Source: Armatimonadota bacterium (lineage in GTDB: Bacteria > Armatimonadota > Chthonomonadetes > Chthonomonadales > CAJBBX01). Taken from it: a DNA stretch of 33,585 nucleotides. Of this stretch, positions 5,648 to 33,585 are shown one piece after another. Every line of letters begins with the position of its first letter. Within the stretch, counting starts at the first letter, position 1. The notes under the pieces were generated by a model. The model did not search any database and was not told the DNA's origin. It saw only the letters and a list, made by a program, of their open reading frames with translations. The position numbers and the translations under genes are program-made. The stretch lies in the NCBI GenBank assembly GCA_026392115.1, contig JAPLCQ010000025.1:1-33585 (forward strand), written 5' to 3'.

Positions 5648-5666
5648 GTGGCGGGCAGGAAGAGAC

Positions 5667-5719: not shown

Positions 5720-5721
5720 GG

Positions 5722-8957: not shown

Positions 8958-9001
8958 CCTCCGCGCCACTGCTCGGGCAGGGCCGCAGGGAGGGACGAGG
9001 C

Positions 9002-10228: not shown

Positions 10229-10253
10229 CCGGCCGGCGCGGCACACAGGCAAA

Positions 10254-10280
10254 GGGCCCCGGCAGCCGTCGCCGGGGCCC
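10254..10280. terminator. Bidirectional hairpin between acetyltransferase and ferredoxin
   Basis: A perfect 10-bp stem, GGGCCCCGGC/GCCGGGGCCC, with a 7-base loop sits in the 72-base gap between convergent genes. AAA precedes it, giving a short T-run in the minus-strand transcript. Confidence 0.75.
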
Positions 10281-10300
10281 CGGTGCGGACGGGACGGAAC

Positions 10301-10558: not shown

Positions 10559-10683
10559 TCTGTGATCCACCTTTCTGGCTCAGGCCATTGGTTTGTTGTA
10601 CGCCTCGCCGCGGGGCGTCCATCGGCCCTTTGGGGAGGCTGGTCTGGCACATCTGCCGCCGGATCGCGCCGCGGGGAAGGCCG

Positions 10684-11325: not shown

Positions 11326-11368
11326 CGTTGTCTCCTTCGGTAGGGCCCCGCCGCAGCCGCGACGCTGC

Positions 11369-11375
11369 TATTATA
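11369..11375. promoter_or_regulatory. Overlapping divergent -10 boxes between rex and the LamG gene
   Basis: TATTATA reads as a consensus TATAAT on the minus strand (11375-11370), about 45 bases before rex, and as TATTAT on the plus strand toward the LamG gene. It stands out in GC-rich surroundings. -35 boxes are weak on both strands. Confidence 0.45.
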
Positions 11376-11513
11376 GTTGATGAGCCGCCGCTCTCGGTAC
11401 CCGGTTATCGATTCTACGTGCATCAGACGCCGGCTGTGCCCCAGATTCGACGGCATGGCGGCCCCGGGCGGCGCTCGCCGCGTAGCCGGCGCCCCACCGG
11501 CCAGGAGGTTGCC

Positions 11514-14500: not shown

Positions 14501-14648
14501 CGTGGACCAGACCCTCCACGGCAAGGACTACTGGCAAGCCGACTTCGACGCCGAGGCCCGGACGTGGGAGATTACCTACACGATCCCCCTCGACACGCCC
14601 GGCGACGCGCCCACGCCAAGGGAGATGCGCTTCCGCCTGGGCCCCTAG
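11514..14648 (+). CDS. Large exported LamG (concanavalin A-like) domain protein
   Basis: A 1044-residue protein with a signal peptide (MRSLPRLRFGGPACG, hydrophobic core GALCLGVALAAAIPAAAQ). Residues about 200-385 form a LamG/concanavalin-like jellyroll: AFTVEMWAYLPD, RWTHLAMTYDGGDLRIYVDG and FRGALDEVRLTGRALAAAEI are diagnostic strands. Residues 40-190 and 400-1044 are beta-rich and not recognised; the C-terminal part has aromatic-rich segments such as GWGSNQEWNQSAIGAWGE and could be a sugar-processing or binding domain. No catalytic site assigned. The preferred start has AGGAGG five bases upstream. It is divergent from rex and followed after 133 bases by the URO-D gene. The fucosidase and NPCBM genes nearby suggest a glycan role (inference). 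Confidence 0.85.
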   Translation: MRSLPRLRFGGPACGALCLGVALAAAIPAAAQRPATRPSMASLMPSARDYVLQYWRDGWRGRTADGRKLRVVQTGSYAMALDAERIAIPHLGPVRAPAPYARAGAEGLPGLAKLPPAALTLTLEVDGRTYRCTGAEPPSLHGGPRIVEAGRLLQRSDVTGLVFKDDGGARLPVEARLETIAWPDRLGLLLEAAPAAGDLTAGPGFGRVGGGWVFDGAGAIVDAAAPELDPAAFTVEMWAYLPDAPEATNAYPWLFCKGGNEWVDGAYGLALINGTPTARICIGGGRDNAFDLEARYENGGRLTVQRERWTHLAMTYDGGDLRIYVDGRPAGSMPVNRARKPRPDGIALGRRLDDSGDGYHFRGALDEVRLTGRALAAAEIARRFAKPEAAEPDAAEVRAWLFDPKGPAMERRPVRSWRGASMRLELRTGGRAHVARLAPEPGREWRTGERRSVAVALDPATGAPAAEEQVQVAASERTSGRLLPVTADPIRGWVRVNLDDLQAQGSGNDLLDRARLTLTNPTDRALPLRLLLEKTDRGLQAPGMSQVTGISPMLRDADGNPTGLHVQLSKNWHSQPGRDLVYQGAWLHAAAYLRLPPHATVDLEATLAYARWGGVPAASHAQLCLIGWGSNQEWNQSAIGAWGESICYEPDQAQAECLICDVRPLLVASRFAGKPVRWTWTGNVGGGDLVRWFDARGKRRFPDRMNTVVRRIGPNLTEVTYAGGFGQGAIRHSVTVSLHRTDDLVRGVYRLSMRVLRPVEFSRLVLFQIGADTYSYTGERRMAVGNASGLAREWETRWGGDTYRTRPVPLKGPAAWVAMQGCAPRSDGADWLALANRGLVVRSWKARLGGRPAEPWFAEHGARVGGADTSTADILPPPGVARLLPGDGVEAVFEHVIVPQRAEDYYGPNAAFRAALERDQDTWRIIRREAAGNALTAKATVGRIASAWPLKVAAIGDRARFSVTGGLGYVPITFTGLTGFRDPVLEVREPGGPWKRVDQTLHGKDYWQADFDAEARTWEITYTIPLDTPGDAPTPREMRFRLGP

Positions 14649-19100: not shown

Positions 19101-19283
19101 GAGCTTGCGGCGCGCCTGGTGGAGCAGCGGCCCGGCCTCCGGTGCATATTCATGTCCGGCTATACCGCCAACGTGATCGCCCAGCACGGCGTCCTGGACG
19201 AGGGCGTCCGGTTCCTGCCGAAGCCCTTCACGCGGGACGGCCTCGCCGCCGCCGTTCGCGCCGCGCTCGACGACGCGCCGTAA
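16164..19283 (+). CDS. Hybrid sensor histidine kinase with two periplasmic solute-binding domains
   Basis: A 1039-residue membrane sensor. After a signal segment come two tandem SBP_bac_3 periplasmic domains (about 42-265, beginning at SEVDYPPFCIVDARG; about 270-490, beginning at GGDDRFPPYEFLDAHG). A single transmembrane helix (about 495-520) is followed by a PAS domain (about 540-650), a HisKA domain with phospho-acceptor His678 in GGVAHDFNNML, a HATPase domain with DTGRGMD and GEGTGLGL, and a receiver (about 918-1035) with Asp970 in LLLTDVVMPEM. It probably binds amino-acid-like or other small ligands and phosphorylates its own receiver; no output regulator is adjacent. The HDFNN-type H-box is common in kinases of this architecture. 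The ribosome site is weak (GGGTGA); a GTG follows the ATG immediately. Confidence 0.93.
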   Translation: MVYFRYSPRPRAEAASICRILGAALFLASLVASAPCRAADPVTAGSEVDYPPFCIVDARGRATGFSVELMEAALRSMGRGVAWKTGVWADVKTWPARGVVQALPMVARTPEREPRYDFTFPYMTQHGAIVVRQNQTGIRRIDDLAGRDVAVMKGDISEEFMLGAGTGARLHSVATFPEALRQLAAGRYDAVVIQRLLAARLIGELGLTNLAISDQPLEGFQQVFCFAVKEGDRDTLAVLNEGLSLVIANGAYAHLHAKWFAALELPTRRRLVIGGDDRFPPYEFLDAHGLPAGLNVDLARAVAREVGLDIEIKLGPWEAARKGLETGQFDALGGLAYSPDRALRVDFAPPHTMLNYVAVVRPASGAPPETVAQLRGRSLAVQRDDMGHDMILRLGLGDRAAAVGSQKEAIQRVVVGTSDCAVVTRLAALEWERAHGSAELRIGRRPVLSVPYGFAVAKGNGALLAQISEGLKTLAERGELRRIHDKWLGPDDEPNVAVVLRYAAMVAGPLLLALLGGVLWVRSLRRQVALRTASLSQSVRQFQLLLEGAPEAIFIQTDYRFHYVNAAACRLFGAAGPQELIGRPVMERFHADYHAAIADRIRRLNEEREPAARIRQTWLRLDGSEVPVEVSGVPVTFEGSDGALIFARDITDHERMEAQLRQAQKMEAVGRLAGGVAHDFNNMLMAVLNYVELARDAVERDHPVRECLDEIEGVSQRSANLTRQLLAFARRQTIAPAVLDLNAEIGRMLKMLRSLIGEDIELVWKPGDGLWPVKADPSQIDQVLANVSVNARDAMGGPGTLTVETANVTVDAATASKHGDALPGDYVALTLTDTGRGMDADALQHIFEPFYTTKGVGEGTGLGLATVFGIMQQNGGFVSVSSTPGSGTTLRMHFPREAHEAPEAPPPTAAAERPGGGETILLVEDERAIRLSTKRLLERLGYLVLVADAPGEALKVALACAGVIDLLLTDVVMPEMTGRELAARLVEQRPGLRCIFMSGYTANVIAQHGVLDEGVRFLPKPFTRDGLAAAVRAALDDAP

Positions 19284-19373: not shown

Positions 19374-19402
19374 TTGCGCCGACCTCCGATCCGTGTTACC
19401 AT
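19374..19402 (+). promoter_or_regulatory. Promoter of propeller gene 1
   Basis: TTGCGC (19374-19379), exactly 17 bases, then TACCAT (19397-19402). The same -35 and spacer length occur before the other three propeller paralogs. The leader would be about 135 bases. Confidence 0.7.
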
Positions 19403-19542: not shown

Positions 19543-22506
19543 ATGTCCAGACGGCTGAGACCCTATCGCGCGCCTGTCGTCGTCACGCTGGCTGCTTGCG
19601 TCGCCGTCCTGGCGCCGGCCGGCGCCCTGCCGACCCGCGCCTCTCTGGCCGGCCTTCCGCTCACCTTTGAGCGGAACACCGGACACTGGCCCGAGCAGGT
19701 CGAGTTCGTGGCCCGTTCGGGGCAGGGAACCCTCTTCCTCACGAAGCGGGAGATGGTCCTGTCGTTGCGCAAGGGCGACAAGGGCGCCGCGCTCCGGCTC
19801 AAGCTGCAGGGCTCCAACCCGAAGGCCGTCGCCTCGGGCCTTGAGAAGCAGCCCGGCATCGTCAACTACTTCATAGGCAACGACCCGAAGAAGTGGCGCA
19901 CGAGAGTGCCCACCTACTCCCGCGTCAAGCTGGCCGGCGTCTACCCCGGCGTGGACCTGGTCACCTACGGCGCGGGCAAGTCGCGCACGCTGGAGTATGA
20001 CTTCGTCGTGAGGCCGGGCGCCGACACGAAGCGCATCCGCATGGCCGTCTCCGGCGCGAAGTCGCTGCGGAGCGTGGGCGGCAGGCTGATCGCCTCGACC
20101 TCCTGCGGCGATGTGACGCTCAACCGGCCCTACGCCTACCAGACCATCGACGGGGTCCGCAAGCAGGTCGCCTGCTCCTTCACGCTGGAGCGGAACACCG
20201 TCGCCTTCGAGGTCGCACGCTACGACGCGAGCCGGCCGCTCGTGGTGGATCCGACGCTGGAGTACAGCACCTTCCTGGGCGGCGCCCTCGACGACAGTTG
20301 CCAGGGAATCCAGGTGGACTCGACAGGCGCCGTCTACGCCTGTGGCTACACGAGCAGCTCTGCCTTTCCCACCAGCGGCACGGGCTTCGACCGAACCTTT
20401 GGCGGGACCGAGGATGGCTTTGTAACCAAGCTCAGTTCGTCCGGCGCCGGGCTGGTCTACAGCACGTTCCTGGGTGGCGCCGGTGGCGACTACTGCTGGG
20501 ACATCGCGGTGGATGCCGCGGGCCAGGCAGTCGTCACCGGTGGCACCGATAGCGGCGGGTTCCCAACCACACTGGCGGCCTATGACAGGTCCTTGGGCGG
20601 CAGCAGCGATGCCTTCGTGACCCGGCTCAACGCCACGGGCTCCGTGCTGATGTTCAGCACGTTCATAGGCGGGACGGGTACCTACTCAGAAGAGGGCCAC
20701 GGCGTTGCCCTCGATAGCACGGGGAACGCCGTTGTGTGCGGCTCCACGCAGAGCCCCTCGTTCCCGACCACCATCGGAGCCTATGATCGCACACATGGCG
20801 GCGGTTGGGACGGCTTCGTCGTCAAATTGACCGTTACCGGCGGCGAACTCCGCTACGGCACATTCCTGGGCGGCGCCGGTGAAGATTCCGCCAGGTGCCT
20901 CGCGCTGGACGCTGCCGGCGCTCCCATCGTCTGCGGGCAGACGGCAAGCGCGGCTTTCCCTACCACGCCGGGAGCGTACGACACGGCGCTGGCCGGCGCC
21001 GATGGCTTCGTGACCAAGCTCAGCGCCGACTTCGCCTCGCTGGTCTACAGCACATTCCTGGGCGGCAGCCTGTATGAGGACGCCAAGCACATCGCGGTAG
21101 ACTCCGCCGGCGCCGCCTACGTCTGTGGCAACACGAGCAGTTCCGACTTCCCGACCACGACCGGAGCGTACGACGAGACCCACAACGGCGGATCATATGA
21201 CGCCTTCGTGGTGAAGCTGAGCCCCGACGGCTCGTCGCTGAACTACGGCACACTCCTGGGTGGCTCCGGCACCGATTACGGCTTGGCTCTCGCCCTCGAT
21301 GCCGATGGGTCGCCGTACGTCTGCGGCTACACCGCCAGCACAGACTTCCCCACCACCGCCGGCGCGTATGACACCACCCACAATGGCGTCGCTGATGTCT
21401 ACGTCGCCAGGTTGAGCGCCGACCTCTCCGCACTTCGGTACAGCACGCTGATGGGCAGCCCCAACTGGGACATCTGCGAGTGCATATCAGTGAACAGCGC
21501 CGGCGTGGTTGCGCTGGGCGGCAGGGTCGGCACGGGCTTTCCCGTCACCACCGGCGCGTACGATACGAGTTTCAACGGGGCCAGCCAGTACGACGCCTTC
21601 GTGGCCAGATTCGGGTTCGCGCCGGCCACGACCTCCCTCTCCGCCACCGGAGCGACCGGGCAGGTGGGGGAGATGGTGGAGTTCACGGCGACGCTCACCT
21701 CGGGCGGCTCGCCCGTGGATGGGGCGACGGTGGAGTTCACCACGCCCGACAGCGTAACCACCTCCCGCACAACCAATGCGTCCGGTGTCGCCAACCTCTG
21801 GTACGACATCCCGGTCGGCGCCGTCACGGATACCGTGGCTGTGGCCTATCAGGCGACGGACTCCTACCAGGCCGCCGACACCACCGCTGCGCTGACGGTG
21901 AGCGCGGTAGCCACGGTCAAGGTCTCGTCGTTCACCGGCAAGCAGGGCGAGGCGCTGACGCTCTACGCCTACCTCTGGCAGGGAAGGACCACGGCGGGCC
22001 TCACGGGCAAGCAGCTAACCTACAGGATCGACGGCGGACCGGCCGTCGACTTCGCCTCGCTCACCGCCGGGACCTTCGGCATGACGACCACCCCATACAC
22101 CGTCCCCGGCGCCATGTCGGCGGGAGCGCACACTCTGACCGTGGACTGGGCGGGCGGCGGCGGCTACCCGGCCTCGCAGGGGACAAGCACGCTGACCGTG
22201 AACGTGCCGGCGCGGACCTATCTCTGGGTCCACAGCCACGGCGCCACGCGCAACGCCGCCACCAAGCTCACCTGTTATCTGTATGACTACAGGCGCAACG
22301 GCGACCTGGTGCCCGTGCCGGGCAAGTCCATCAGCTTCAGCGTGGGCGGCACGCCGGTGGGCACGGCCGTCACCGCCACCGACGGCAAGGCGTTCCGCGT
22401 CTATACGCCGGTCGCGACGGGCGCCCTGACGCAGACCCTCTCCTTCGCCGGCGACGCGGCATACTCCGCCACCAGCAACACCGGCGCCCTCACCGTCACC
22501 CCGTAA
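19543..22506 (+). CDS. Exported seven-bladed SBBP propeller/Ig-like protein 1
   Basis: A 987-residue protein. After a signal peptide comes a DUF7948-like domain (about 40-240), beginning PLTFERNTGHWPEQVEFVARSGQ and containing TSCGDV...QVACSF, two Cys conserved in most paralogs here. Seven SBBP repeats follow (about 240-690), each starting with a strand like YSTFLGG and carrying AVDxxGxxYVCGxT...FPTTxGAYD and VxKLxxxG segments, enough for one seven-bladed propeller. Three Ig-like domains of about 95 residues end the protein, the last with YLWVHSHGA and GKSISFSVGGTPVG. No enzyme motif; a surface or secreted binding role is inferred. GGGAG lies eight bases before the ATG. Its C-terminus and terminator closely resemble those of gene 2. 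Confidence 0.9.
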   Translation: MSRRLRPYRAPVVVTLAACVAVLAPAGALPTRASLAGLPLTFERNTGHWPEQVEFVARSGQGTLFLTKREMVLSLRKGDKGAALRLKLQGSNPKAVASGLEKQPGIVNYFIGNDPKKWRTRVPTYSRVKLAGVYPGVDLVTYGAGKSRTLEYDFVVRPGADTKRIRMAVSGAKSLRSVGGRLIASTSCGDVTLNRPYAYQTIDGVRKQVACSFTLERNTVAFEVARYDASRPLVVDPTLEYSTFLGGALDDSCQGIQVDSTGAVYACGYTSSSAFPTSGTGFDRTFGGTEDGFVTKLSSSGAGLVYSTFLGGAGGDYCWDIAVDAAGQAVVTGGTDSGGFPTTLAAYDRSLGGSSDAFVTRLNATGSVLMFSTFIGGTGTYSEEGHGVALDSTGNAVVCGSTQSPSFPTTIGAYDRTHGGGWDGFVVKLTVTGGELRYGTFLGGAGEDSARCLALDAAGAPIVCGQTASAAFPTTPGAYDTALAGADGFVTKLSADFASLVYSTFLGGSLYEDAKHIAVDSAGAAYVCGNTSSSDFPTTTGAYDETHNGGSYDAFVVKLSPDGSSLNYGTLLGGSGTDYGLALALDADGSPYVCGYTASTDFPTTAGAYDTTHNGVADVYVARLSADLSALRYSTLMGSPNWDICECISVNSAGVVALGGRVGTGFPVTTGAYDTSFNGASQYDAFVARFGFAPATTSLSATGATGQVGEMVEFTATLTSGGSPVDGATVEFTTPDSVTTSRTTNASGVANLWYDIPVGAVTDTVAVAYQATDSYQAADTTAALTVSAVATVKVSSFTGKQGEALTLYAYLWQGRTTAGLTGKQLTYRIDGGPAVDFASLTAGTFGMTTTPYTVPGAMSAGAHTLTVDWAGGGGYPASQGTSTLTVNVPARTYLWVHSHGATRNAATKLTCYLYDYRRNGDLVPVPGKSISFSVGGTPVGTAVTATDGKAFRVYTPVATGALTQTLSFAGDAAYSATSNTGALTVTP

Positions 22507-22541
22507 CGCTAAAGCCGCAACAACCGCATACGGACTACACA

Positions 22542-22573
22542 GCGCCCCCGGCGGCTTCGGCTTCCGGGGGCGC
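22542..22573 (+). terminator. UUCG-capped hairpin after propeller gene 1
   Basis: GCGCCCCCGGCGGC, a TTCG tetraloop closed by C-G, then GCTTCCGGGGGCGC: a 14-bp stem with one C-T mismatch and a G-T pair. It starts 36 bases after the stop codon. No T-tract follows. Confidence 0.75.
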
Positions 22574-22608
22574 CGGCACGGCTCGGGGAAGAATCCCCCG
22601 CGCCCCCC

Positions 22609-22637
22609 TTGCGCCGTCGGTCATTGTGCTGTATGAT
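22609..22637 (+). promoter_or_regulatory. Promoter of propeller gene 2
   Basis: TTGCGC (22609-22614), 17 bases, then TATGAT (22632-22637), the best sigma-70-like match of the four paralog promoters. It starts 35 bases after the hairpin of gene 1; leader about 130 bases. Confidence 0.75.
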
Positions 22638-22772
22638 TTCCTCAGGGACGTGGGTACTGCTGGCTCACTGCCGCGGGGGCACGCCACGCCGGACCGGCGA
22701 TGTGCCGGACTCGGCGCCGAGGCGCCATATGGCGGGCGCGTCCGCATCACTGACATTGGAGAGGACAAGCAC

Positions 22773-24380
22773 ATGCCAAAAGCCAAGCTGTACGGTCTCG
22801 CCGCCGCGGTGGCGCTGTCGGCACTTGCCGGCGTAGCGGGGGCCTCGCCGTCCGCTCCGCGATCCGGCTGGCCGATCGCGCCGCCGTTGACCTTCGAGAA
22901 GAACACGGGGCGCTTTCCAGCCCAGGTGAAGTTCGTGGCCCGCACCGGCGGAGGCACGCTCTTCCTGACGAACCGGGAGGCGGTCCTTGCGCTGACGGGC
23001 CGGGACAAGGCCGCGGCGCTCCGGCTGAAGCTGGCCGGATCAAACCCCGGCGCCGTCGCCGCCGGCCTGGACAAGCTGCCGGGCCATGTCAACTACATCG
23101 TCGGCGATGACCCGGCGAAGTGGCGCACCAACGTGCCCACCTACTCGCGCGTCAAGCTGACGGGCGTCTACCCCGGCATCGACCTGGTCTACTACGGCGC
23201 CCGCAAGAGCCGCGCGCTGGAGTACGACTTCGTCGTGAAGCCCGGCGCCGACCCGTCGAGAATCCGCATGGCGGTCTCCGGCGCGAAGTCGCTCCGCTCC
23301 GCCGGCGGCCGTCTCGTCGCCTCCACGGCGGTCGGCGACGTGGCGCTGAACACGCCGTACGCCTACCAGACCGTGAACGGCGTGCGCCGGCAGGTGGCCT
23401 GCTCCTTCAGCCTGGAGAGCAACACCGTGGCCTTCCGGGTCGCCCGCTACGACGCGACCCGACCGCTGGTTGTGGACCCGACGCTGGTCTTCAGCACCTA
23501 TCTCGGCGGCTCCGGCGCCGACTATCAGACCCCCGGCGTCTACGGCCCGCCGAACGGCATCGCCGTCGACTCCGCCGGCGCCGTCTACGTCACCGGCTGC
23601 GCCGGCTCGGCCAACTTCCCCACGACTGCGGGCGCGTACCAGACGGCCAGGGCGGGCAGCCAGACCGACGCCTACGTGACGAAGATCAACCCCGGCGGCG
23701 CCACGCTTGCCTACAGCACCTACCTGGGCGGCACGGGCGCGGATTACGGCTATTCCATTGCCGTCGACTCGCTGGGGTCGGCCTACGTTACCGGCGCCGC
23801 CAACGCGGGCTTCCCGACCACGGCCGGCGCCTTCTCCACCACCAACACCGGGTTGCTCGACGTCTTCGTTACGAAGCTCAACCCGGCGGGCAGCGCCCTC
23901 GTCTACAGCACCTATCTCGGCGGCGATGCTTCTGAATACGGCCACTGCATCGTGCTGGACGCCGCCAACAACGCCGTCGTCGGCGGCTACGCGACGGCCC
24001 CGACCACGGTTCAGTTCCCCACGACGGCAGGAGCCTTCCAGGTCCTGCCCGCCGGCAACACGGAGGGCTTTGTGGCCAAGCTCAACGCCGGGGGGACCGC
24101 CCTGCTCTGGAGCACGCTCCTGGGCGGCACGGGCGTCGACTCCGTGACCGGCGTGGTGGTTGAGGCGGTGACGGACAACGTCTTCGTCTCGGGCATGACC
24201 AACGGCGGCGGCTTCCCGAGCGTACCCGGCAGCTACGATGCCACCGCCAACGGCGCCGCCGACGGCTTCGTGGCCAAGCTGAACTCCACGGGCTCGGCGC
24301 TGATCTACGGGACCTTCCTCGGCGGCACGGGCGACGACCGCGTGCTGTCGTTGGCCACCGATACCTCCGGCAACGCCTAA
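22773..24380 (+). CDS. 5' part of propeller gene 2, as truncated by the stop
   Basis: If the TAA is real and not read through, translation gives 535 residues: signal peptide, DUF7948-like domain and about four and a half of seven propeller blades. An incomplete propeller without the Ig-like domains is unlikely to fold normally. Promoter and ribosome site are intact, so transcription probably continues. Confidence 0.6.
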   Translation: MPKAKLYGLAAAVALSALAGVAGASPSAPRSGWPIAPPLTFEKNTGRFPAQVKFVARTGGGTLFLTNREAVLALTGRDKAAALRLKLAGSNPGAVAAGLDKLPGHVNYIVGDDPAKWRTNVPTYSRVKLTGVYPGIDLVYYGARKSRALEYDFVVKPGADPSRIRMAVSGAKSLRSAGGRLVASTAVGDVALNTPYAYQTVNGVRRQVACSFSLESNTVAFRVARYDATRPLVVDPTLVFSTYLGGSGADYQTPGVYGPPNGIAVDSAGAVYVTGCAGSANFPTTAGAYQTARAGSQTDAYVTKINPGGATLAYSTYLGGTGADYGYSIAVDSLGSAYVTGAANAGFPTTAGAFSTTNTGLLDVFVTKLNPAGSALVYSTYLGGDASEYGHCIVLDAANNAVVGGYATAPTTVQFPTTAGAFQVLPAGNTEGFVAKLNAGGTALLWSTLLGGTGVDSVTGVVVEAVTDNVFVSGMTNGGGFPSVPGSYDATANGAADGFVAKLNSTGSALIYGTFLGGTGDDRVLSLATDTSGNA

Positions 24381-24389
24381 GTGGCCGGT

Positions 24390-25769
24390 ATGACCTCCTC
24401 GGCGGCATTCCCCACCACGCCGGGCGCCTACGACACCACGCATAACGGCGGCTACGACGTCTTCGTCGCCAAGCTCAACGCCGCCGGGACCGCGCTCGGC
24501 TACAGCACGTTCATGGGCGGCACGGGCACGACGCTGGACCGGGCCTTCGGGATCGCGGTGGACTCGGCGGGCGGCGCGTGGGTCACTGGCGGCACCCCGA
24601 GCTCGGCCTTCCCGGTCACCGCGGACGCCTACCAGGGCACATTCGGCGGCGGACCCCTGGCGGACGCCTTCGTCTCCCGCCTCAGCCCCACCGGCGCGTC
24701 GCTCACCTACAGCACCTTCCTCGGCGGCTCGGCTGAAGACGCCGGACGCGACGTGGCCATCAGCAGCACGGGCCAGGTCTTCGTGACCGGCTATGCCGGC
24801 GCCGGGTTCCCGACATCGGCCGGGGCCTTCCAGACGGTCTACGGCGGCAGCACGGCGGACGGCTGGGTCGCCCAGTTCGACGGTCGGGCGAGCACCGCCA
24901 TCGCGGTTGCGCCGGTCACCGGGCAGGTCGGTGAGCGGATTTATGTCACCGCCACGCTGACCTCGGGCGGCAGCGGCGTCTCCGGCGCGACGGTGACCTT
25001 CACCATGCCGGGCGGCGCCACCATCGACCGCACCACCGATGCCACCGGCATCGCCGACTACTACTGGGACATCCCCGTGGGCCAGGCAAGCGCCACCATC
25101 GGGGCGGCGTTTGCTGGCGATGGAACCTACGGCCCCTCGAGCAACACCGGCGCGCTGACCGTCACGGTGGCCTCCAAGATCAGCGTCAACGGCGCTTCGG
25201 GCACGGCGGGCTCCACCGTCGGCATCGTGGCCTACCTGTGGGACGGCAAGTCGATGTCCGGCCTCACGGGCAAGCAACTGACCCTGAAGATCGACGGCGG
25301 CTCGGCGTCCAACTTCCCGGCGCTCACGGCCGGCGCCTACGGCAAGGCGACCTACGCCTACGCCATTCCCGGCGCCATGTCCATCGGCGCCCATTCGACC
25401 ACGGTGGACTGGGTCGGCGGCGGCGGCTACCCCGCATCGCAGGGGACCGGCACGCTGACGGTGTCGGGAGTCGCGAACACCTACCTCTGGGTCCACAGCC
25501 ACGGCGCGACCCTGAACCAGGCCACCAAGCTCACCTGTTACCTGTATGACTACAGGCGCAACGGCGACCTGATCCCCGTCGCGGGCAAGTCCATCAGCTT
25601 CAGCGTGAGCGGCACGCCGGTGGGCTCGGCAGTCACGGCCGCCGACGGCAAGGCGTTCCGCGTCTATACGCCGACCGCCCTGGGAGCCCTTCCGCAGTCC
25701 TTCGCGTTCGCCGGCGACGGCGGCTATGCGGCGGCAAGCAACACCGGCACGCTGACCGTCGCCCCGTAG
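24390..25769 (+). CDS. 3' part of propeller gene 2
   Basis: The same frame continues to 25769, encoding the rest of blade 5, blades 6-7 (YSTFMGGTG and YSTFLGGSAED) and three Ig-like domains ending TGTLTVAP. The first ATG is at 24390 and a GTG abuts the stop at 24381; neither has a ribosome site or signal peptide, so independent expression is doubtful. The last Ig-like domain is nearly identical to that of gene 1. Confidence 0.4.
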   Translation: MTSSAAFPTTPGAYDTTHNGGYDVFVAKLNAAGTALGYSTFMGGTGTTLDRAFGIAVDSAGGAWVTGGTPSSAFPVTADAYQGTFGGGPLADAFVSRLSPTGASLTYSTFLGGSAEDAGRDVAISSTGQVFVTGYAGAGFPTSAGAFQTVYGGSTADGWVAQFDGRASTAIAVAPVTGQVGERIYVTATLTSGGSGVSGATVTFTMPGGATIDRTTDATGIADYYWDIPVGQASATIGAAFAGDGTYGPSSNTGALTVTVASKISVNGASGTAGSTVGIVAYLWDGKSMSGLTGKQLTLKIDGGSASNFPALTAGAYGKATYAYAIPGAMSIGAHSTTVDWVGGGGYPASQGTGTLTVSGVANTYLWVHSHGATLNQATKLTCYLYDYRRNGDLIPVAGKSISFSVSGTPVGSAVTAADGKAFRVYTPTALGALPQSFAFAGDGGYAAASNTGTLTVAP

Positions 25770-25802
25770 CGCCGCGGCCGCGACGACCGCATACGGACCG
25801 CA

Positions 25803-25838
25803 CAACGCCCCCGGCGGCTTCGGCTTCCGGGGGCGTTG
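25803..25838 (+). terminator. UUCG-capped hairpin after propeller gene 2
   Basis: CAACGCCCCCGGCGGC, TTCG loop, GCTTCCGGGGGCGTTG: 16 bp with one C-T mismatch. The outer pairs differ from the gene 1 copy but stay complementary (AACG with CGTT in place of GCG with CGC), consistent with selection for pairing. Confidence 0.75.
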
Positions 25839-25947
25839 GCGCGGATGGGCGGGTAGGGCGGATGCGTCGCCCCTGTCGCCCGGCCCCCCCTGCTTCGCCG
25901 ACCGCGTCGGTGGGGCCTGCGATCTCCCGCCGCGATGGGGCGGAGGC

Positions 25948-25976
25948 TTGCGCCCTTGCTTCTAAGCTGATATCAT
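25948..25976 (+). promoter_or_regulatory. Promoter of propeller gene 3
   Basis: TTGCGC (25948-25953), 17 bases, then TATCAT (25971-25976). The leader is about 65 bases, shorter than for the other paralogs. Confidence 0.72.
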
Positions 25977-26046
25977 ATGCGCGGTCGGCGCGTCGATGCG
26001 GCGGCGGCCCGGTGCAGTCTATCCTGCAGAAAGAAGGTTCAGGCCC

Positions 26047-28950
26047 ATGGTTCCACGTCCGCTGTCCCTCGCTTTGCCAGCGGCCCTGCTCGCGCTGACC
26101 GGCGCGGCCGGCGCCTCTCCCGCCGCTCGCGGGTCGGCCTCGCGTATGCTCAACCGGCCTCTGACGTTCGAGAGGAACACGGGACGCTACCCGAAGGATG
26201 TCCAGTTCGTCGCTCGCTCCGGTCAGGGCGCGCTCTCGCTGACGAGCCGCGAGGCCGTCCTGACGCTCAGGAGGGCGGGCCGGACCGCGGACCTTCGGCT
26301 GACGCTGCGGGGCTCCAACCCGAAGGCCGCGGCCTCGGGGCTCGACAAGCAGCCCGGCGTCGTGAGCTACTTCATCGGCAAGGACCCGGCGAAGTGGCGC
26401 ACCCACATTCCGACCTTCTCGCGCGTCAAGCTCGCCGGCGTCTACCCCGGCGTGGACCTGGTCTACTACGGCGCCGGCAAGTCGCGCACCCTGGAGTACG
26501 ACTTCGTCGTGAAGCCCGGCGCCGACCCGTCGAGAATCCGCATGGCGGTCTCCGGCGCGAAGTCGCTCCGCACCGTCGGCGGCAGGCTCGTCGCCTCCAC
26601 ATCCTGCGGCGACGTGACGCTGAACCGGCCCTACGCCTACCAGACCGTGGGCGGCGTCCGCAAGCAGGTCGCCTGCTCCTTCGCGCCGCGGGGCAACACC
26701 GTGGCATTCCGGATCGCGCGCTACGACGCTTCGCGTCCGCTCGTCGTGGACCCCACGCTGACTTACGAGTACTATATCGATAGTACCGGCGAAGACTACG
26801 CGGCCGGCGTCGCGGTCGACTCCACCGGGGCATGCTACACCGCGGGCGCCCTGGGCGTGGGCGCTTACGGCCTCTCAGACGCCTTCGCCGTGAAGGTCCG
26901 TGCCGACGGCGCCCTCGACTACCTGTCCTTTGTTGGCGGCGCCGATGACGACCGCGCCTGCGGCCTCGCGGTGGACGCGTCAGGCTGCGCCTATCTCACG
27001 GGTTCGACCTACAGCACGGACTTTCCGGTCACCCCGGGCGCAAAGTTCACCACGTTCGGCGGCGGCACGGACGCCTACGTCGTCAAGCTCGGCGCGGCCG
27101 GTTCCACGATCGAGTATGGCACCTACCTCGGCAATGACGGCTTCGACGACGCCTGGGGGATCGGCGTCGACGCCGCGGGCAACGCCTACGTGGCCGGCAA
27201 CACCAGCGCCAACTTCCCCGTGACGCCCGGCGCGTTCCAGACCGCGGGCGGCACGTCGGGCGAGGGGTTCGTCAGCAAGTTCAACGCCACCGGATCCGAC
27301 CTCGTCTACAGCACCTACCTGGCGGGCTCCGACAGCGACCTCGTCAACGGCATGGCGGTCGACGCGGCGGGCTGCGTCTACGTCACGGGCTGCACCTGCA
27401 GCTCCGACTTCCCCGTGACCCCCGGCGCGTTCCAGACGACGTTCGGCGGAGGGTCCAACTTCGGCGACGCCTTCCTCACGAAGCTCAAGGCCGACGGAAC
27501 CGGGCTCGTCTACAGCACCTACATCGGCGCGGCGGGCGAGGACACCGCCTACTCCGTCTCGGTGGACGCCGGCGGATACGCCTACGTCTGCGGCACCGCG
27601 GAGACAGGTTTCCCGACGACCGCGGGCGCGTACCAGACCGCGTTCGGCGGCTCGACGGACGCCTGGGTGGCCAAGGTCGACACCGACGGCTCCAAGCTGG
27701 TCTACTGCACCTATATCGGAGGCGCCCAGTGGGACGCCGCCTACGGCGTCTCGGCCGGGCCCGACGGAACGGCCTATGTGTCCAGCTACACGGCCGGCGA
27801 CTGGCCGGTGACGCCGGACGCCTACCAGGGCGCCTACGGCGGCGGGGACAGCGACTGGGCCATCACGGCGCTGAACCCGGCGGGTTCCGCCCTCACCTAC
27901 AGCACCTACTACGGCGCGGCCTCCTACGAGAGGTACCCGCTGATCGCCTTCTCGGGCGGCGCCGCCCATGTGGCCGGCGAACGTTCCAATGGCAGCAACG
28001 GCGACGCCCAGTTGGTCAAGTTCACCTTCACCACGGCTTCGACCTCCCTGGCCGTCGACAGCCTCAGCGCCACCGCGGGCGCGCGCGTCACGCTCCGCGG
28101 CCGCCTGACGGATGGGGCGGGCGCGGGCATCGCCGGTCAGCGGCTCCAGTTCAAGGTCGATGGCGGCGCGTGGGTCGCATCTGAAGTCCTCACCAGCGCC
28201 CTGGGCTACGCCACCCTCACCATCACGGCCCCGGCCGCCGGCTCCCACCCGCTGGCCTGCAAGTTCGACGCGGCCGGCTCGTACCCCGCGGCCGATGGAA
28301 CCGGCACGCTGGTTACCACCTCCCTCCTGGCCACCGCCGCCAGGGTGAACGCGGTGACGGCGGGCCCCGGCGACGGCGTGGACCTCGCCGCCTACCTCGT
28401 GACCCCCAACGGAACCAGCCCCGGCGCCGGCATCGCCGGTAAGCAGATGGAGTTCCAGCTCAACGGAGGGTCCTGGACCCCGGCCGCGGCGCCCACCGAC
28501 GCCGTCGGCAAGGCCACGGTCGCCGCGACGGCGCCGGCCGCGGCGGGCGATTACACCATCAACGCCCGCTTCGTGGGCGACGCCACGCACGCCGCCTCCA
28601 GCGGCACGGCCAAGCTCACGGTGGCGGCCAAGCGGAACGTCTACGTCTACACATTCAACCGTACCGTGGCGGGCGGCCCCACCAAGCTGATCGCCATGCT
28701 CTACTGGCGCCAGCAAGACGGCACGCTGACACCGCTCCGCGGCAAGTCCCTTCGGTTCCAGTGCCCGCGCGCCGCGGGCGTGGACGCGACGGTTGCCACG
28801 GACGCCTCAGGCAAGGCCGCCGCCGCGGTACCCGCGCTCGCGTCGGGTACCTATCCCTTCACCGTCGACTTCGCCGGCGACACGGACTACAACGCCGGCA
28901 CGGCTTCCGGCACACTGACGGTCGCGGGCGGGCCCAACCCTCCCGACTAG
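26047..28950 (+). CDS. Exported seven-bladed SBBP propeller/Ig-like protein 3
   Basis: A 967-residue paralog of genes 1, 2 and 4. Signal peptide MVPRPLSLALPAALLALTGA; DUF7948-like domain beginning RPLTFERNTGRYPKDVQFVARSG with both conserved Cys; seven SBBP repeats starting at YEYYIDSTG and ending near YSTYYGAAS; then three Ig-like domains. The last Ig-like domain (NVYVYTFNRTVAGG...GKSLRFQ) is divergent from those of genes 1 and 2, while an 81-base stretch of the N-terminal domain is identical to gene 2, so the gene looks mosaic. AGAAGG lies nine bases before the chosen ATG; an in-frame ATG at 25996 would add 17 basic residues before the signal peptide. Surface or secreted binding role inferred. 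Confidence 0.9.
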   Translation: MVPRPLSLALPAALLALTGAAGASPAARGSASRMLNRPLTFERNTGRYPKDVQFVARSGQGALSLTSREAVLTLRRAGRTADLRLTLRGSNPKAAASGLDKQPGVVSYFIGKDPAKWRTHIPTFSRVKLAGVYPGVDLVYYGAGKSRTLEYDFVVKPGADPSRIRMAVSGAKSLRTVGGRLVASTSCGDVTLNRPYAYQTVGGVRKQVACSFAPRGNTVAFRIARYDASRPLVVDPTLTYEYYIDSTGEDYAAGVAVDSTGACYTAGALGVGAYGLSDAFAVKVRADGALDYLSFVGGADDDRACGLAVDASGCAYLTGSTYSTDFPVTPGAKFTTFGGGTDAYVVKLGAAGSTIEYGTYLGNDGFDDAWGIGVDAAGNAYVAGNTSANFPVTPGAFQTAGGTSGEGFVSKFNATGSDLVYSTYLAGSDSDLVNGMAVDAAGCVYVTGCTCSSDFPVTPGAFQTTFGGGSNFGDAFLTKLKADGTGLVYSTYIGAAGEDTAYSVSVDAGGYAYVCGTAETGFPTTAGAYQTAFGGSTDAWVAKVDTDGSKLVYCTYIGGAQWDAAYGVSAGPDGTAYVSSYTAGDWPVTPDAYQGAYGGGDSDWAITALNPAGSALTYSTYYGAASYERYPLIAFSGGAAHVAGERSNGSNGDAQLVKFTFTTASTSLAVDSLSATAGARVTLRGRLTDGAGAGIAGQRLQFKVDGGAWVASEVLTSALGYATLTITAPAAGSHPLACKFDAAGSYPAADGTGTLVTTSLLATAARVNAVTAGPGDGVDLAAYLVTPNGTSPGAGIAGKQMEFQLNGGSWTPAAAPTDAVGKATVAATAPAAAGDYTINARFVGDATHAASSGTAKLTVAAKRNVYVYTFNRTVAGGPTKLIAMLYWRQQDGTLTPLRGKSLRFQCPRAAGVDATVATDASGKAAAAVPALASGTYPFTVDFAGDTDYNAGTASGTLTVAGGPNPPD

Positions 28951-28975
28951 TCCGACGTCACCAGCAACCGCACCC

Positions 28976-29009
28976 AGCGCCCCCGGAGGCTTCGGCTTCC
29001 GGGGGCGCT
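28976..29009 (+). terminator. UUCG-capped hairpin after propeller gene 3
   Basis: AGCGCCCCCGGAGGC, TTCG loop, GCTTCCGGGGGCGCT: a 15-bp stem with no mismatch (one G-T pair) closed by a C(UUCG)G tetraloop, and ending CTT. It begins 26 bases after the stop codon. Confidence 0.8.
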
Positions 29010-29149
29010 TGGCGTCGTGGATCGCCCTGGTTGCCCCTTCGCCGCCATCCATCCGCGTCCAGGCAGGAACCCGGGGCGGGCGCGGAGAACCCGTGTCCCG
29101 GGCGGCGGGATCTCGGCGCCGCCCGGCCCAGGCCGACAGGGAGGTCGAC

Positions 29150-30886
29150 ATGCTCGTTTCAGCCCGATGGGCGATGCCCGCCATCGCCATGGCGGTGTTG
29201 AGCGCCGCCGCAACGCCGGTCGCCGCCCAGTCCGTGCTTCTGGTCCCGGTGAGCGCCAACGGCCTCGCCTTCGATCCCCACGGCCGCAAGCTGTGGGCCA
29301 CCGTGGGCTCGGGCGGCGGAGCCATGGCGAACAGCGTGGTGAGCATCGATCCCGATACGGGGAGCCTGGGCAAGGCCACCTATATCGGCAGCGAACCGAA
29401 CCGGCTCGTGGTGTCGGACAAGGGGAAGTACCTGTACGTCGTCATCACCGACGGGCGCACCATCCGGCGGTTCGACATCGCCAGGCAGGAGGCCGGGCTG
29501 CAGTTCCCGGTCGGCGAGGGGCTGGCGGTCACCACGCTGGCGCCGATGCCCGGAGCGCCCGAAGCCGTCGTGGTGATGCGCCACCGTCCCGGCATCAGCC
29601 CCAACGACGCCGGGGTCGCCGTCTACGACAACGGGCAGCCCCGCCCGAGGACCGTCGGCACCGGGCACCACCTCGCGCCGGGCATCCATCCCACCCGCCT
29701 CTTCGGCTACGAGAACCAGATCTCATCCTGGGGTTTCACGACGGTGAACCTGACCAGGGAGGGCGCCGAGGGCGGCGGCTCCACGGGCAGCCTGCTCTCG
29801 GGCAACGTGGGACTGGGAAGCAGCGCCAACGGCCTCATCGTGGCCGGCGCGGCGAACGTCATCGACCCCGAGGCGCGGCAATCGGTCGGCTCCATCCCCG
29901 GCGGCGACGGCTGGATCACGCTGGACGCCCAGACCGGCCGCGCCCTGCGGTTGAGCGGCGGCAAGAACCAGTTCCTCCTGACGGCGTACGACCTGAAGAC
30001 GTTCGCCGAGGTCGGCTCCATCCCGATTATGAACATCGGCGCAAGCGGCGGACCCGGCGCCCTCCTGCGGTGCGACGACAAGACCCTCGCCTTCTCGGCC
30101 GGCGACCGGATCGTCATCCTCAAGGTCGATGTGGGACCGAAGCTGCCGCAGGTCGATCTCAGCGTCTCGCGGTCCGCGTTTCCTGAGCCGCTGCCCCGGA
30201 ACGGCCAACTAAAATACACGCTCACCGTCACGAACAACAGCCCCTTCGCCTGCACCGGCGTACACCTCACCGACGCGCTGCCTCCGAGCGCCGAGGTGCT
30301 GGGCACGAAGATGAGCCAGGGCAGCGGCGTGGCGGCCGACCACATCGTCCGAGCCGACCTCGGGAGCCTGAAGGGCGGCGCCAGGGCCACCGTGGAGGTC
30401 TCGCTGCAGGTGAACCGGCTCGACGACTTCGCGTTCGCCGCCGTTGTCCGCGCCTTTGAGCCGGACCCATCCACCTCCAATAACATCAGCCTCACCAGCC
30501 CGGCGCCGTTGGCCGTCGCGCTGCCCGACCTCGGCGGCGCCTGGCGGGGGCTCGAGCAGCGGTCGGTCGGCGCCGGCGTCAACCTGAGGGCGGGCCTCCG
30601 CGGCGTCTTCGAGATCGCGAATCTGGGCGAGCGCCCCTCCGGCCCGTGCCTTGTCCGCTTCTACCTCTCCGCCGGCCCCCGGCTCGTGGTGTCGATGTCG
30701 CAGCTGCTGCAAGAAGCTCCGATCCCCGCGCTGGCGAAGGGCCGTTCCTACCTCGTCAACCTGGAGGCCCCGCTGGAGCGCGGCGACGACGCGACGGGCC
30801 TCTACGTCATCGCGGTCATCGATCCCGGCGGCGCCGTGGCGGAGAAGACCAAGGACAACAACGTGGTGGGAACAGCCATCCCCTAG
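29150..30886 (+). CDS. Exported beta-propeller protein with DUF11 and CARDB-like domains
   Basis: A 578-residue protein not homologous to its SBBP neighbours. Signal peptide MLVSARWAMPAIAMAVLSAA. Residues about 27-325 resemble a YncE/lactonase-type propeller: LAFDPHGRKLWATVG, VVSIDPDTGSLGKATYIG, VVSDKGKYLYVVITDG. Residues about 330-443 form a DUF11 domain (VDLSVSRS...LKYTLTVTNNSPFACTGVHLTDALP...DPSTSNN), and residues 456-578 a CARDB-like domain ending VAVIDPGGAVAEKTKDNNVVGTAIP in pattern. No catalytic residues evident; an extracellular structural or binding role is inferred. AGGGAGG lies five bases before the ATG. It lacks the TTGCGC promoter of its neighbours and ends at its own hairpin. Confidence 0.87.
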   Translation: MLVSARWAMPAIAMAVLSAAATPVAAQSVLLVPVSANGLAFDPHGRKLWATVGSGGGAMANSVVSIDPDTGSLGKATYIGSEPNRLVVSDKGKYLYVVITDGRTIRRFDIARQEAGLQFPVGEGLAVTTLAPMPGAPEAVVVMRHRPGISPNDAGVAVYDNGQPRPRTVGTGHHLAPGIHPTRLFGYENQISSWGFTTVNLTREGAEGGGSTGSLLSGNVGLGSSANGLIVAGAANVIDPEARQSVGSIPGGDGWITLDAQTGRALRLSGGKNQFLLTAYDLKTFAEVGSIPIMNIGASGGPGALLRCDDKTLAFSAGDRIVILKVDVGPKLPQVDLSVSRSAFPEPLPRNGQLKYTLTVTNNSPFACTGVHLTDALPPSAEVLGTKMSQGSGVAADHIVRADLGSLKGGARATVEVSLQVNRLDDFAFAAVVRAFEPDPSTSNNISLTSPAPLAVALPDLGGAWRGLEQRSVGAGVNLRAGLRGVFEIANLGERPSGPCLVRFYLSAGPRLVVSMSQLLQEAPIPALAKGRSYLVNLEAPLERGDDATGLYVIAVIDPGGAVAEKTKDNNVVGTAIP

Positions 30887-30893
30887 CCGCCGC

Positions 30894-30915
30894 GAAGTCG
30901 CCGAAGGGCGACTTC
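30894..30915 (+). terminator. Hairpin after the propeller/DUF11 gene
   Basis: A perfect 9-bp stem, GAAGTCGCC/GGCGACTTC, with a GAAG loop starts eight bases after the stop codon. No T-tract. Confidence 0.6.
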
Positions 30916-30958
30916 CCGCCGTTCGTTGCCGCGGTTTCAACCGCCGTTCGTTGCCGCG
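30916..30958. repeat. 18-bp direct repeat
   Basis: CCGCCGTTCGTTGCCGCG occurs exactly at 30916-30933 and 30941-30958, a 25-base period, directly after the hairpin. Function unknown. Confidence 0.65.
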
Positions 30959-31073
30959 CCCGCGGACCCGAGCCATCGACGACGATGGCTTGCGCCGTCC
31001 TCCGGGATGGACCCATCTGGGGCGATGTTACGCGTCAGACGCTTGGGAACCCTTGATGAGTCCGCAAGAGGGC

Positions 31074-31102
31074 TTGCGCTCCGCCTCCGAACGTGATATC
31101 CT
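31074..31102 (+). promoter_or_regulatory. Promoter of propeller gene 4
   Basis: TTGCGC (31074-31079), 17 bases, then TATCCT (31097-31102). It shares the TGATATC context of the gene 3 promoter. The leader would be about 125 bases. Confidence 0.7.
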
Positions 31103-31232
31103 ACGCATGGTGGGCGCGCCGCGCGGTCGGCGGTCCGATGCGTGAGCTGCTCAATCTGAACTGAGGTCCTACGCGGACGGCTCCCTCAACGGTGGGGAAG
31201 CCTCTTGTTGCATAGATGAGGAAAGGTGGCGC

Positions 31233-33585
31233 ATGTTCCGGATCGCCATGCTGCGTCGGGTCGCACTCGCGTGCCCGGCGGCCCTCCTCGCGCTGGCCGC
31301 ATCGGCCGGCGCGGCCCCTCACGCGGCCCTTCGAGCGCCGCGGACGGCGACCCCCCCGCTGACGTTCGAGCGGAACACGGGCCACTGGCCCGGCGAGGTG
31401 CAGTTCGTCGCCCGCTCGGGCCAGGGAATGCTCTTCCTGACGAAACGCGAGATCGTCCTGTCGCTGCGCAAGGGCGACAAGGCCGCCGCTCTGCGCTTGA
31501 AGCGGCGGGGCTCCAACCCGAAGGCCGTTGCCTCGGGGCTGGAGAAGCAGCCCGGCATCGTCAACTACTTCATCGGCAACGACCCGAAGAAGTGGCGCAC
31601 CAAGGTCCCCACCTACTCCCGCGCCCGGCTGGCGGGCGTCTACCCCGGCATCGATCTGGTGACCTACGGCGCGGACAAGTCCCGGACGCTGGAGTACGAC
31701 TTCGTCGTGAAGCCCGGCGAGGACCCGAAGCAGATCCGTATGACGGTCTCCGGCGCGAGGTCGCTGCGAACCGCGGACGGCAAGCTCATCGCCTCCACCT
31801 CCTGCGGCGACGTGACGCTCAACCGACCCTACGCCTACCAGACCGTGAACGGCGTGCGCAAACAGGTCGCCTGCTCGTTCAGCCTTGAGCGCAACACCGT
31901 CGCATTCCAAATCGCGCGCTACGACGCCTCGCGGCCGTTGGTGGTGGACCCGACGCTGGAGTACTGCACCTTCCTGGGGGGCGACGCGACCGATAATGCC
32001 TACGGGGTCGCGCTGGATGCGGCGGGCGCCGCGATCGTCTGCGGGAGAAGCTACAGCGCCGCCTTCCCAACCACATCGGGGGTCGCTCAAACCAGCAACG
32101 GCGGCGGCTACGATGCGTTCGTCACCAAACTGAACTCGGACGGCACGGCGCTGGCCTTCAGCGCCTACCTGGGCGGCGCGGGCGCCGACCAAGCCCTGGC
32201 TATTGCAGTCGACACGGCCGGGGTCATCACCGTCTGCGGCTATACCTCCGGCGCATTCCCCACCACCACAGGCGCATTCCAGACCGCCTACGGCGGCGGC
32301 CAAGATGCGTTCGTCACCAGACTGAACGCGGCCGGCACGGAGTTGGTCTACAGCACCTACCTGGGCAAGGCGGGCGGGGACAATGCCAATGCCATTGCCG
32401 TGGACTCCCTCGGCGCCGCGTACGTCTGCGGCAATACCAACGGCGCGTTCCCAACCACCCCCGGCGCGTATGACAGCACGCTTGGCGGCTCGAATGACGT
32501 CTTCATAACGAAGCTGAATGCGACGGGAACGGCGCTGGTCTACAGCACCTTCGTGGGCAGCACGGGCAGTGACACTGGGTACGGGATCGCCGTCGACTCA
32601 GCCGGGTCCGCCACCGTCTGCGGAAACACCAGCACCGGCGCGTACCCCACGACCACCGGCGCGTTCCAGACCGTCAGAGGCGGTCTCACGGACGGCTTCG
32701 TCACCAGGCTGAACCCCGACGGTACGGCGCTGGTCTACAGCACCTACCTGGGCGGCTTGGGTGCGGACTACCCCCGAGCCATCGCCATCGGAGCCGACGG
32801 CGCAGTCGTCATCCACGGCTATACCAGCAGCAGCGACTTCCCAACCACGGTCGGCGCCTATCAGACGACCAGGGCAAGCGGTTCCGACGGCTTCATCACG
32901 AAGCTCGATGCGACGGGCACGGCGCTCGTCTACAGCACCTACCTGGGCGGCACTTCCACGGAGTACAGCTACGGCCTCGCCCTCGACGCGGTCGGCGCCC
33001 CCGTCGTCTGCGGATACGTAGGCGGCGCCGGCTTTCCCGTCACCGCGGATGCGCTCCAGGCCACGTCCGGCGGCGCGGGCGACGCATACATTGCGAAGCT
33101 CGACGCGAGCGGCGCGACAATGCTCTACGGCTCCTATCTGGGCGGCTCGGGCGGCGAGTATGGGCTTGGCGTGGCCCTCGACGCGGCCGGCGCCGCCACG
33201 GTCGTCGGATACACGGCCAGCACCGGCTTTCCCACCACCGCGGGTGCGTACCAGACCACGTATGGCGGCGGGACTTTCGACGGATACGTCACCAAGATCT
33301 CCTTCGGTGCGACGGCACAGCCCACCACCATCACCGCCGACGCGGTGACCTGCTATGCGTCGGATACGATCACGCTCACCGGTACACTGACGAAGACATC
33401 GGACAGCAGCGCCCTCTCGGGCAAGACGATCCTGTTCAAGGTCGATGCCGGCGGGACCTGGACCGACGCCGCGGCCGCCACCGGCGCCGACGGCAAGGCC
33501 ACCCTCTCGGCCACGGCGCCCGCCACCACCGGGGCGCATACCATCTACGTGCGGTTCGAGGCGGACACCGACTACGCCGCGTCGG
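31233..33585 (+). CDS. Exported SBBP propeller/Ig-like protein 4, cut by the window edge
   Basis: An open frame runs from ATG 31233 to the right edge (784 full codons) without a stop. Signal peptide MFRIAMLRRVALACPAALLALAA; DUF7948-like domain beginning PPLTFERNTGHWPGEVQFVARSG, with both conserved Cys (TSCGDV, QVACSF) and closest to gene 1; seven SBBP repeats from YCTFLGGDATDN to YGSYLGGSGGEYG; then the start of a first Ig-like domain (GKTILFKVDAGGTW...FEADTDYAAS). By analogy one to two more Ig-like domains and a UUCG hairpin should lie just outside. AAAGGTGG lies about three bases before the ATG and GAGGA about ten; an in-frame ATG at 31248 is an alternative start but has no better site. Confidence 0.88.
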   Translation, partial: MFRIAMLRRVALACPAALLALAASAGAAPHAALRAPRTATPPLTFERNTGHWPGEVQFVARSGQGMLFLTKREIVLSLRKGDKAAALRLKRRGSNPKAVASGLEKQPGIVNYFIGNDPKKWRTKVPTYSRARLAGVYPGIDLVTYGADKSRTLEYDFVVKPGEDPKQIRMTVSGARSLRTADGKLIASTSCGDVTLNRPYAYQTVNGVRKQVACSFSLERNTVAFQIARYDASRPLVVDPTLEYCTFLGGDATDNAYGVALDAAGAAIVCGRSYSAAFPTTSGVAQTSNGGGYDAFVTKLNSDGTALAFSAYLGGAGADQALAIAVDTAGVITVCGYTSGAFPTTTGAFQTAYGGGQDAFVTRLNAAGTELVYSTYLGKAGGDNANAIAVDSLGAAYVCGNTNGAFPTTPGAYDSTLGGSNDVFITKLNATGTALVYSTFVGSTGSDTGYGIAVDSAGSATVCGNTSTGAYPTTTGAFQTVRGGLTDGFVTRLNPDGTALVYSTYLGGLGADYPRAIAIGADGAVVIHGYTSSSDFPTTVGAYQTTRASGSDGFITKLDATGTALVYSTYLGGTSTEYSYGLALDAVGAPVVCGYVGGAGFPVTADALQATSGGAGDAYIAKLDASGATMLYGSYLGGSGGEYGLGVALDAAGAATVVGYTASTGFPTTAGAYQTTYGGGTFDGYVTKISFGATAQPTTITADAVTCYASDTITLTGTLTKTSDSSALSGKTILFKVDAGGTWTDAAAATGADGKATLSATAPATTGAHTIYVRFEADTDYAAS

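Follow-up and report, generated by a model that had tools for sequence, protein, structure and literature searches.

Proteins that join an N-terminal DUF7948 domain to SBBP repeats (PF25778 and PF06739) are widespread, with representatives in Acidobacteriota, Nitrospirota, Planctomycetota, Methylomirabilota and other phyla. Elsewhere in the Armatimonadota they usually occur in few copies and diverge evenly along the gene. No mention of DUF7948 was found in the literature searched, and the term "SBBP repeat" was encountered there in one Leptospira transcriptome paper. CylK, the Friedel-Crafts alkylating enzyme of Cylindospermum (PDB 7fh7, 7ron), has a propeller with calcium between the blades and long internal top loops, and an N-terminal calcium-binding domain that supplies the catalytic Arg105 (PMC8916777). 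Most known examples of recombining families with conserved ends and exchangeable bodies come from pathogens exposed to host immunity; the parts of two reports available to us describe Neisseria opa and Anaplasma msp2/p44 as loci whose exchangeable variable sequences are diversified by recombination (PMC2265424, PMC11946796).

The stretch of DNA analysed here (the window, 33,585 nucleotides) belongs to a 5.7 Mb genome in 181 contigs (G000) and was compared with two sister species of the same genus, MAGs Loc090907-8-6m_bin-692 (G001) and LaPlata-b_bin-0775 (G002; uncultured Chthonomonas sp., Armatimonadota). Cross-species comparisons rest on these three genomes, which are metagenome bins or multi-contig assemblies with many family genes at contig ends. 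The preliminary description had proposed a tandem array of one unit repeated four times, consisting of a promoter, a leader of about 100 bases, a DUF7948-like domain, seven SBBP blades, Ig-like domains and a closing hairpin. Four genes of this type are indeed present, all on the forward strand, and profile matches placed all three kinds of domain in each of them, with DUF7948 scoring 194–211 bits in every copy (curated Pfam cut-off 27) and SBBP repeats 54–74 bits (cut-off 20.5). Copy 1 (19543–22506) is intact and encodes 987 residues comprising a signal peptide, DUF7948 (19666–20256), a seven-blade propeller (about 20257–21615) and Ig-like domains. Copy 2 (22773–25769) is broken by an in-frame TAA at 24378–24380, in blade 5, beyond which the frame stays open; it is otherwise complete, with DUF7948 at 22893–23483, seven blades and Ig-like domains, and its relative at G001:C183 (body 79%) is an open frame. 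Copy 3 (26047–28950) is intact, with about 967 residues counted from the ATG at 26047, a ribosome-binding site (AAGAAGG) directly upstream of that codon, DUF7948 at 26167–26757, a propeller and Ig-like domains; six blades were scored in it, the first being shortened. Copy 4 (31233–33585), with DUF7948 at 31365–31955 and seven blades, is cut within its first Ig-like domain by the contig end at 33585, so that the array could not be followed further to the right. Two of its successive blades still form a 192-bp tandem repeat with 76% identity (32098–32467), the mark of blade amplification. The picture of one unit in four copies is therefore qualified by the broken copy 2, the truncated copy 4 and an unrelated gene between copies 3 and 4 (29150–30886, forward strand), which by Pfam encodes a different secreted protein with a propeller-like N-terminus, DUF11 and CARDB. 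This gene has an 83% ortholog on G002:C179, a contig with no DUF7948 match, and a mere remnant in G001:C71, adjoining a family gene.

A motif search identified a promoter-like element, TTGCGC-N17-TAYSMT, upstream of each copy, as had been proposed: TTGCGC-N17-TACCAT at 19374–19402, TTGCGC-N17-TATGAT at 22609–22637, TTGCGC-N17-TATCAT at 25948–25976 and TTGCGC-N17-TATCCT at 31074–31102, all on the forward strand. There are no further sites in the window, where 0.03 would be expected, an expectation that is not independent of the result because the pattern was derived from the same four sites. The same element occurs at other family members, many of which have related promoters and hairpins. Leaders, measured from about 7 nt past the second hexamer, are about 134, 129, 64 and 124 nt long in copies 1–4 and are not of the uniform length first suggested; they gave no Rfam match at gathering score, and two sub-threshold matches look like chance. 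Terminator-like hairpins close copies 1–3 (22542–22572, 25805–25835 and 28977–29007, forward strand), the fourth copy being cut before its end. These hairpins are nearly identical, and 13 such sites occur genome-wide at three or fewer mismatches. The conserved gene ends of the preliminary description apply to copies 1 and 2, whose C-termini are 79% identical in amino acids; that of copy 3 differs (35%), and that of copy 4 is cut off. Read from the sequence, the predicted products begin with Sec-type signal peptides ending in AGA or similar motifs. The sequences revealed neither a lipobox common to the copies nor a sorting motif or membrane anchor, which leaves a surface location unproven.

Upstream of the array, at 3974–14648, the window has carbohydrate-related genes, which encode an alpha-L-fucosidase with an F5/8 domain, an NPCBM protein and a laminin-G-like protein. 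The gene adjoining copy 1 encodes a hybrid sensor kinase (SBP3-PAS-HisKA-HATPase-receiver by Pfam; 16164–19283, forward strand), which served as the anchor for identifying the locus in the sister species. This kinase, which has solute-binding domains, has 43–47 matches per sister genome and thus belongs to a large kinase family.

An AlphaFold2 model of copy 1, built from a 47-sequence alignment (mean pLDDT 88.9), comprises the DUF7948 domain, a propeller and Ig-like domains. The propeller has seven four-strand blades and is closed by the N-terminal strand that follows DUF7948. It matched the C-terminal seven-blade propeller of CylK with a Z score of 48.8 and an rmsd of 1.5 Å over 387 residues (23% identity), the next-best propellers reaching a Z of about 32. 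The alignment begins at CylK residue 251, and DUF7948 stands in place of the N-terminal calcium-binding domain with its catalytic arginine, so that the enzyme activity of CylK is not expected here. The internal top-face loops of the model are as long as those of CylK, and an acidic residue is conserved in the inter-blade loop of the blade consensus, which together with the calcium seen in CylK makes calcium binding by the family propeller plausible. DUF7948 modelled alone (pLDDT 92.6) resembled mutarotase-like beta-sandwich or supersandwich folds, with Z scores of 12.3 for GLMP, 11.4 for a GH95 domain, 10.6 for the YidC periplasmic domain and 10.4 for galactose mutarotase, all at no more than 10% identity, and a Foldseek search of the model against the PDB gave no match at E ≤ 0.001. 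We regard this predicted resemblance as a lead only.

DUF7948 matches number 28 in G000, 31 in G001 and 21 in G002, as compared with 0–5 in other genera of the same taxonomic family and mostly 0 or 1 in the remaining Armatimonadota genomes. The majority of the G000 matches lie on contigs other than that of the window, so that the family as a whole is mostly dispersed and only in small part a tandem array. In a phylogenetic tree, the four window copies fall inside a 41-row clade confined to one genus (16, 16 and 9 rows per genome; supports 100/100).

Two other elements recur in G000. One, seen at about 3960–4150 of L063, is a stretch of about 170 bp that encodes a prepilin-type N-terminus (FTLIELLVVIAIIAILAAILFPVFAQARE) and is found at about 40 places. 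G000:C178:75298–77340 (L133 15299–17341) encodes an RCC1-type repeat protein whose C-terminal Ig-like domains, by reading, look similar to the ones found in the family. More than 20 further sites in G000 are similar to the end of this gene, and a second propeller-Ig family may therefore exist.

Divergence among the window copies is strongly non-uniform along the genes. As the preliminary description had noted, the N-terminal domain is well conserved (74–86% identical, dS about 0.4–0.55) and the blades differ strongly (40–49%, dS about 0.7–1.2); the even divergence that it had named as an argument against a repertoire was not seen. Averaged over all G000 paralog pairs, identity climbs from about 55% to about 79% where DUF7948 begins and drops from 81% to 61% where it ends, the limits of conservation coinciding with the domain edges. 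If DUF7948 were merely the more conserved domain and the blades tolerant of change, it should be the more similar part of these genes, and in every window pair it is. The pattern should then also accompany the domain elsewhere. The ratio of mean column entropy between DUF7948 and the propeller is 0.98 for 40 homologs from other phyla and 0.38 for the clade. Among the DUF7948 genes of these three genomes that fall outside the clade, 20 comparisons placed the body between 17 points below and 11 points above DUF7948, and the body/DUF7948 dN ratio had a median of 1.07 in these controls as compared with 4.3 in the clade (Mann-Whitney p = 0.0004, with comparisons that are partly non-independent). 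In G036, which is also rich in copies, identities of the two parts are correlated (0.79) and none of 28 pairs is decoupled; the corresponding counts are 7 of 28 in G063, which is intermediate, and 83 of 91 in the clade. Intrinsic constraint is equally unable to explain a gene with a body 98% and a DUF7948 segment 87% identical to those of its counterpart (see below). As a full explanation it is refuted by the other phyla, the outside-clade genes and G036, and we consider it very improbable. The controls outside the clade and in other phyla show that the conserved front results from recombination and is not intrinsic to DUF7948, and the combination of conserved front and variable blades is specific to the genus-restricted clade of about 41 genes. 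Tree comparisons with 30 genes gave separate histories for the two parts, each of which rejects the tree of the other (AU test; p = 0.0008 for the DUF7948 data on the propeller tree and about 3e-35 for the propeller data on the DUF7948 tree).

Loci were paired between species by their flanking DNA. In 9 of 11 informative clade comparisons, drawn from six loci and non-independent where they share one, DUF7948 is 75–99% identical but the body only 42–61% in amino acids; the other two retain their body. In five positional pairs, the drop in identity lies no more than about 30 nt from where DUF7948 ends. At G000:C12/G001:C23, the gene is mostly 80–100% identical from the leader through DUF7948 and about 55–62% in the propeller, and the last 230 nt together with the downstream flank return to 73–90%. 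At G001:C43/G002:C160, DUF7948 and the downstream flank are 84–94% identical and the intervening body is very different, and the second gene at G000:C134/G001:C83 combines a DUF7948 segment of 99% with a body of 50%.

Close relatives of these bodies were found at other loci. The copy 1 body is 83% identical to G001:C115 but only 57% identical to the gene that occupies the position of copy 1 in G001. The copy 3 body matches G001:C73 (76–78%), that of copy 4 matches G001:C59 (72%) and G000:C84 (69%), and the body at G000:C51 matches G001:C83 (85%). Between G000:C84 and G001:C59, the body is 99.7% identical in amino acids and the upstream flanks are different. The reverse mosaic also occurs: the first gene at G000:C134/G001:C83 has a body of 98% and a DUF7948 segment of 87%, with a dS of 0.04 in the propeller as compared with 0.29 in DUF7948. 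Segments of 2.2–4.0 kb at family loci are 98.0–99.0% identical between G000 and G001 (L040, L045 and L046 as compared with L058, L066 and L078), whereas matched flanks are mostly 82–93% identical, a difference that points to recent transfer between these two species; no such segments were found at family loci between G000 and G002 or between G001 and G002.

Mosaics of this kind could also be produced by assemblers joining different copies within the repeated DUF7948 segment, and contig ends do indeed cut more than 12 family genes across the three genomes. Exact matches within a genome are short, however, with a median of 26–27 nt, a maximum of 141 nt and three pairs over 80 nt, which makes wholesale misassembly unlikely. 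At G000:C12/G001:C23 the exchanged body lies between two collinear flanks, and at G001:C43/G002:C160 the downstream flank is collinear; joins within DUF7948 would also have to account for the reverse mosaic. Individual junctions may be misassembled, but an assembly artefact as the source of the pattern seems to us improbable. The arrangement instead shows a DUF7948 segment that either is homogenised across paralogs or stays where it is, and a propeller-Ig body that is swapped from locus to locus and from species to species.

The number of genes at the locus of the window also differs between species. Orthologs of the kinase, 84% identical at G001:C149 and 79% at G002:C192, are each followed by a DUF7948 gene. 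The locus holds exactly one family gene in G002, contiguous with both flanks, at least two in G001, separated by a contig gap, and at least four in G000, together with the inserted gene. Constant copy number across strains had been named as evidence against a repertoire; it was found neither here nor genome-wide, and comparison with the sister species makes a stronger case for a diversifying and exchangeable repertoire than could be made from the sequence alone. The far flank of the locus lies in G000 on contig C178 (92% identity to G001), where it stops exactly at a leftover family terminator hairpin (69593–69623), beyond which lie unrelated genes and no family gene. A breakpoint at the end of a gene fits recombination at the cassette edge. 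At least 4 of about 16 clade copies in G000 are broken (copy 2, C84, C134, C96 and others), which plain birth and death of genes fits as well. At L065 2562–3434, the frame of a truncated DUF7948 closes with residues that read like the final part of the Ig domain of another gene (AVTATTGFNVVP), apparently an internal deletion that joined two conserved ends.

We considered whether variation is focused on a binding face, with top and bottom faces assigned from strand order and from the fit to CylK and WD40 propellers. Propeller dN/dS in ortholog pairs is 0.12–0.65, in keeping with purifying selection, and pooled values are 0.38 for top loops and 0.33 for bottom loops and below 1 in all loop classes, with no difference in nonsynonymous change between top and bottom loops (p = 0.29). 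Columns in the upper quartile of variability comprise 51 of 165 top-loop and 12 of 70 bottom-loop positions in the clade, and 59 of 165 and 17 of 70 in homologs from other phyla. The check on variable surfaces that the preliminary description had recommended thus gave a top-loop bias no larger than in ordinary homologs, and focused variation of the top face was rejected on this similarity and on the missing dN/dS excess. Diversification proceeds through the exchange of whole bodies rather than through changes concentrated on a binding face. A diversity-generating retroelement was also rejected, as all four RVT_1 matches lie on contigs without family genes and the exchanged unit is far larger than the variable region of such elements. 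No short simple-repeat tracts that would indicate phase variation were found at the gene starts.

Taken together, these data are best explained by a genus-restricted recombining family with exchanged bodies and a putative binding or adhesion role with renewed specificities, a reading that we hold to be probable, though well short of certain. The decoupled histories of front and body, in-place replacement, relocation of bodies, variable copy number and decay of copies are the features of this family that the data show. Each gene carries its own promoter and encodes a Sec signal peptide, DUF7948, a seven-blade CylK-type SBBP propeller and Ig-like stalk domains. Exchange would occur by homologous recombination, with the DUF7948 segment as left anchor and the shared C-terminal Ig domain or the terminator as right anchor. 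The product would serve in binding or adhesion outside the cell, and its set of binding specificities, directed perhaps at glycans, particles, phage or grazers, would be renewed by exchange. Of the binding and display repertoire first proposed, diversifying exchange is borne out and display is not, the signal peptides being of Sec type and no anchor or sorting motif having been found; binding, for which the propeller fold speaks, is the most likely reading of the repertoire and one that we infer.

The principal alternative is neutral birth and death of genes with ectopic gene conversion. Duplicated genes would then recombine wherever they remain similar, as in DUF7948, while the drift and shuffling of bodies would be incidental and diversity itself would not be selected. 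A unit that is alike recombines and thereby stays alike, a process that could by itself yield sharp edges, and neither the many decayed copies nor the lack of any dN/dS above 1 calls for more. Yet the bodies are under purifying selection, some are nearly unchanged between species despite differing flanks, which suggests selected exchange, and the family has expanded in all three species of the genus. Neutral turnover is on balance unlikely, while deserving serious weight. A stronger version of selected exchange would make DUF7948 a constant docking module as well as a recombination handle, with the bodies of secreted propeller receptors circulating as cassettes among about 16 loci and among lake species and renewing recognition of glycans, phage or grazers, much as antigenic-variation families do in pathogens; we offer this as a tentative proposal, slightly more doubtful still. 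The recombining family with a putative binding role is the reading carried forward below.

The family shares the N-terminal domain and the seven SBBP repeats of other DUF7948-SBBP proteins but differs from them in its 21–31 matches per genome and in the decoupling of front from body. With CylK it shares the propeller. The SBBP propeller region of Leptospira LipL53 (NCBIfam NF047494) matches copy 1 at 54 bits, the family cut-off of 400 being far above. Bap1 and RbmC, biofilm adhesins of Vibrio cholerae, contain propellers, and to our knowledge they are not known as a recombining family. They are modular, with glycan-targeting domains, according to the part of one report available to us (PMC10102183). 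The parallel with the window family is functional only. If different bodies bind different targets, the family would constitute a natural panel of propeller specificities in a constant frame, and a testable case for what drives repertoires outside hosts, whether phage, grazing or particle attachment.

As far as the available parts of the sources describe them, opa and msp2/p44 resemble the window family in occupying several loci and in exchanging variable parts between conserved flanks. In contrast to these systems, every copy in the window comes with a promoter-like element and a signal peptide of its own, and there is no single expression site; broken copies exist, but promoterless donor cassettes were not identified. 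There is likewise no simple-repeat switch. Whereas opa and msp2/p44 belong to host-bound pathogens, the same pattern is found here in lake bacteria, uncultured freshwater Armatimonadota, and the exchanged unit is the whole propeller-Ig body.
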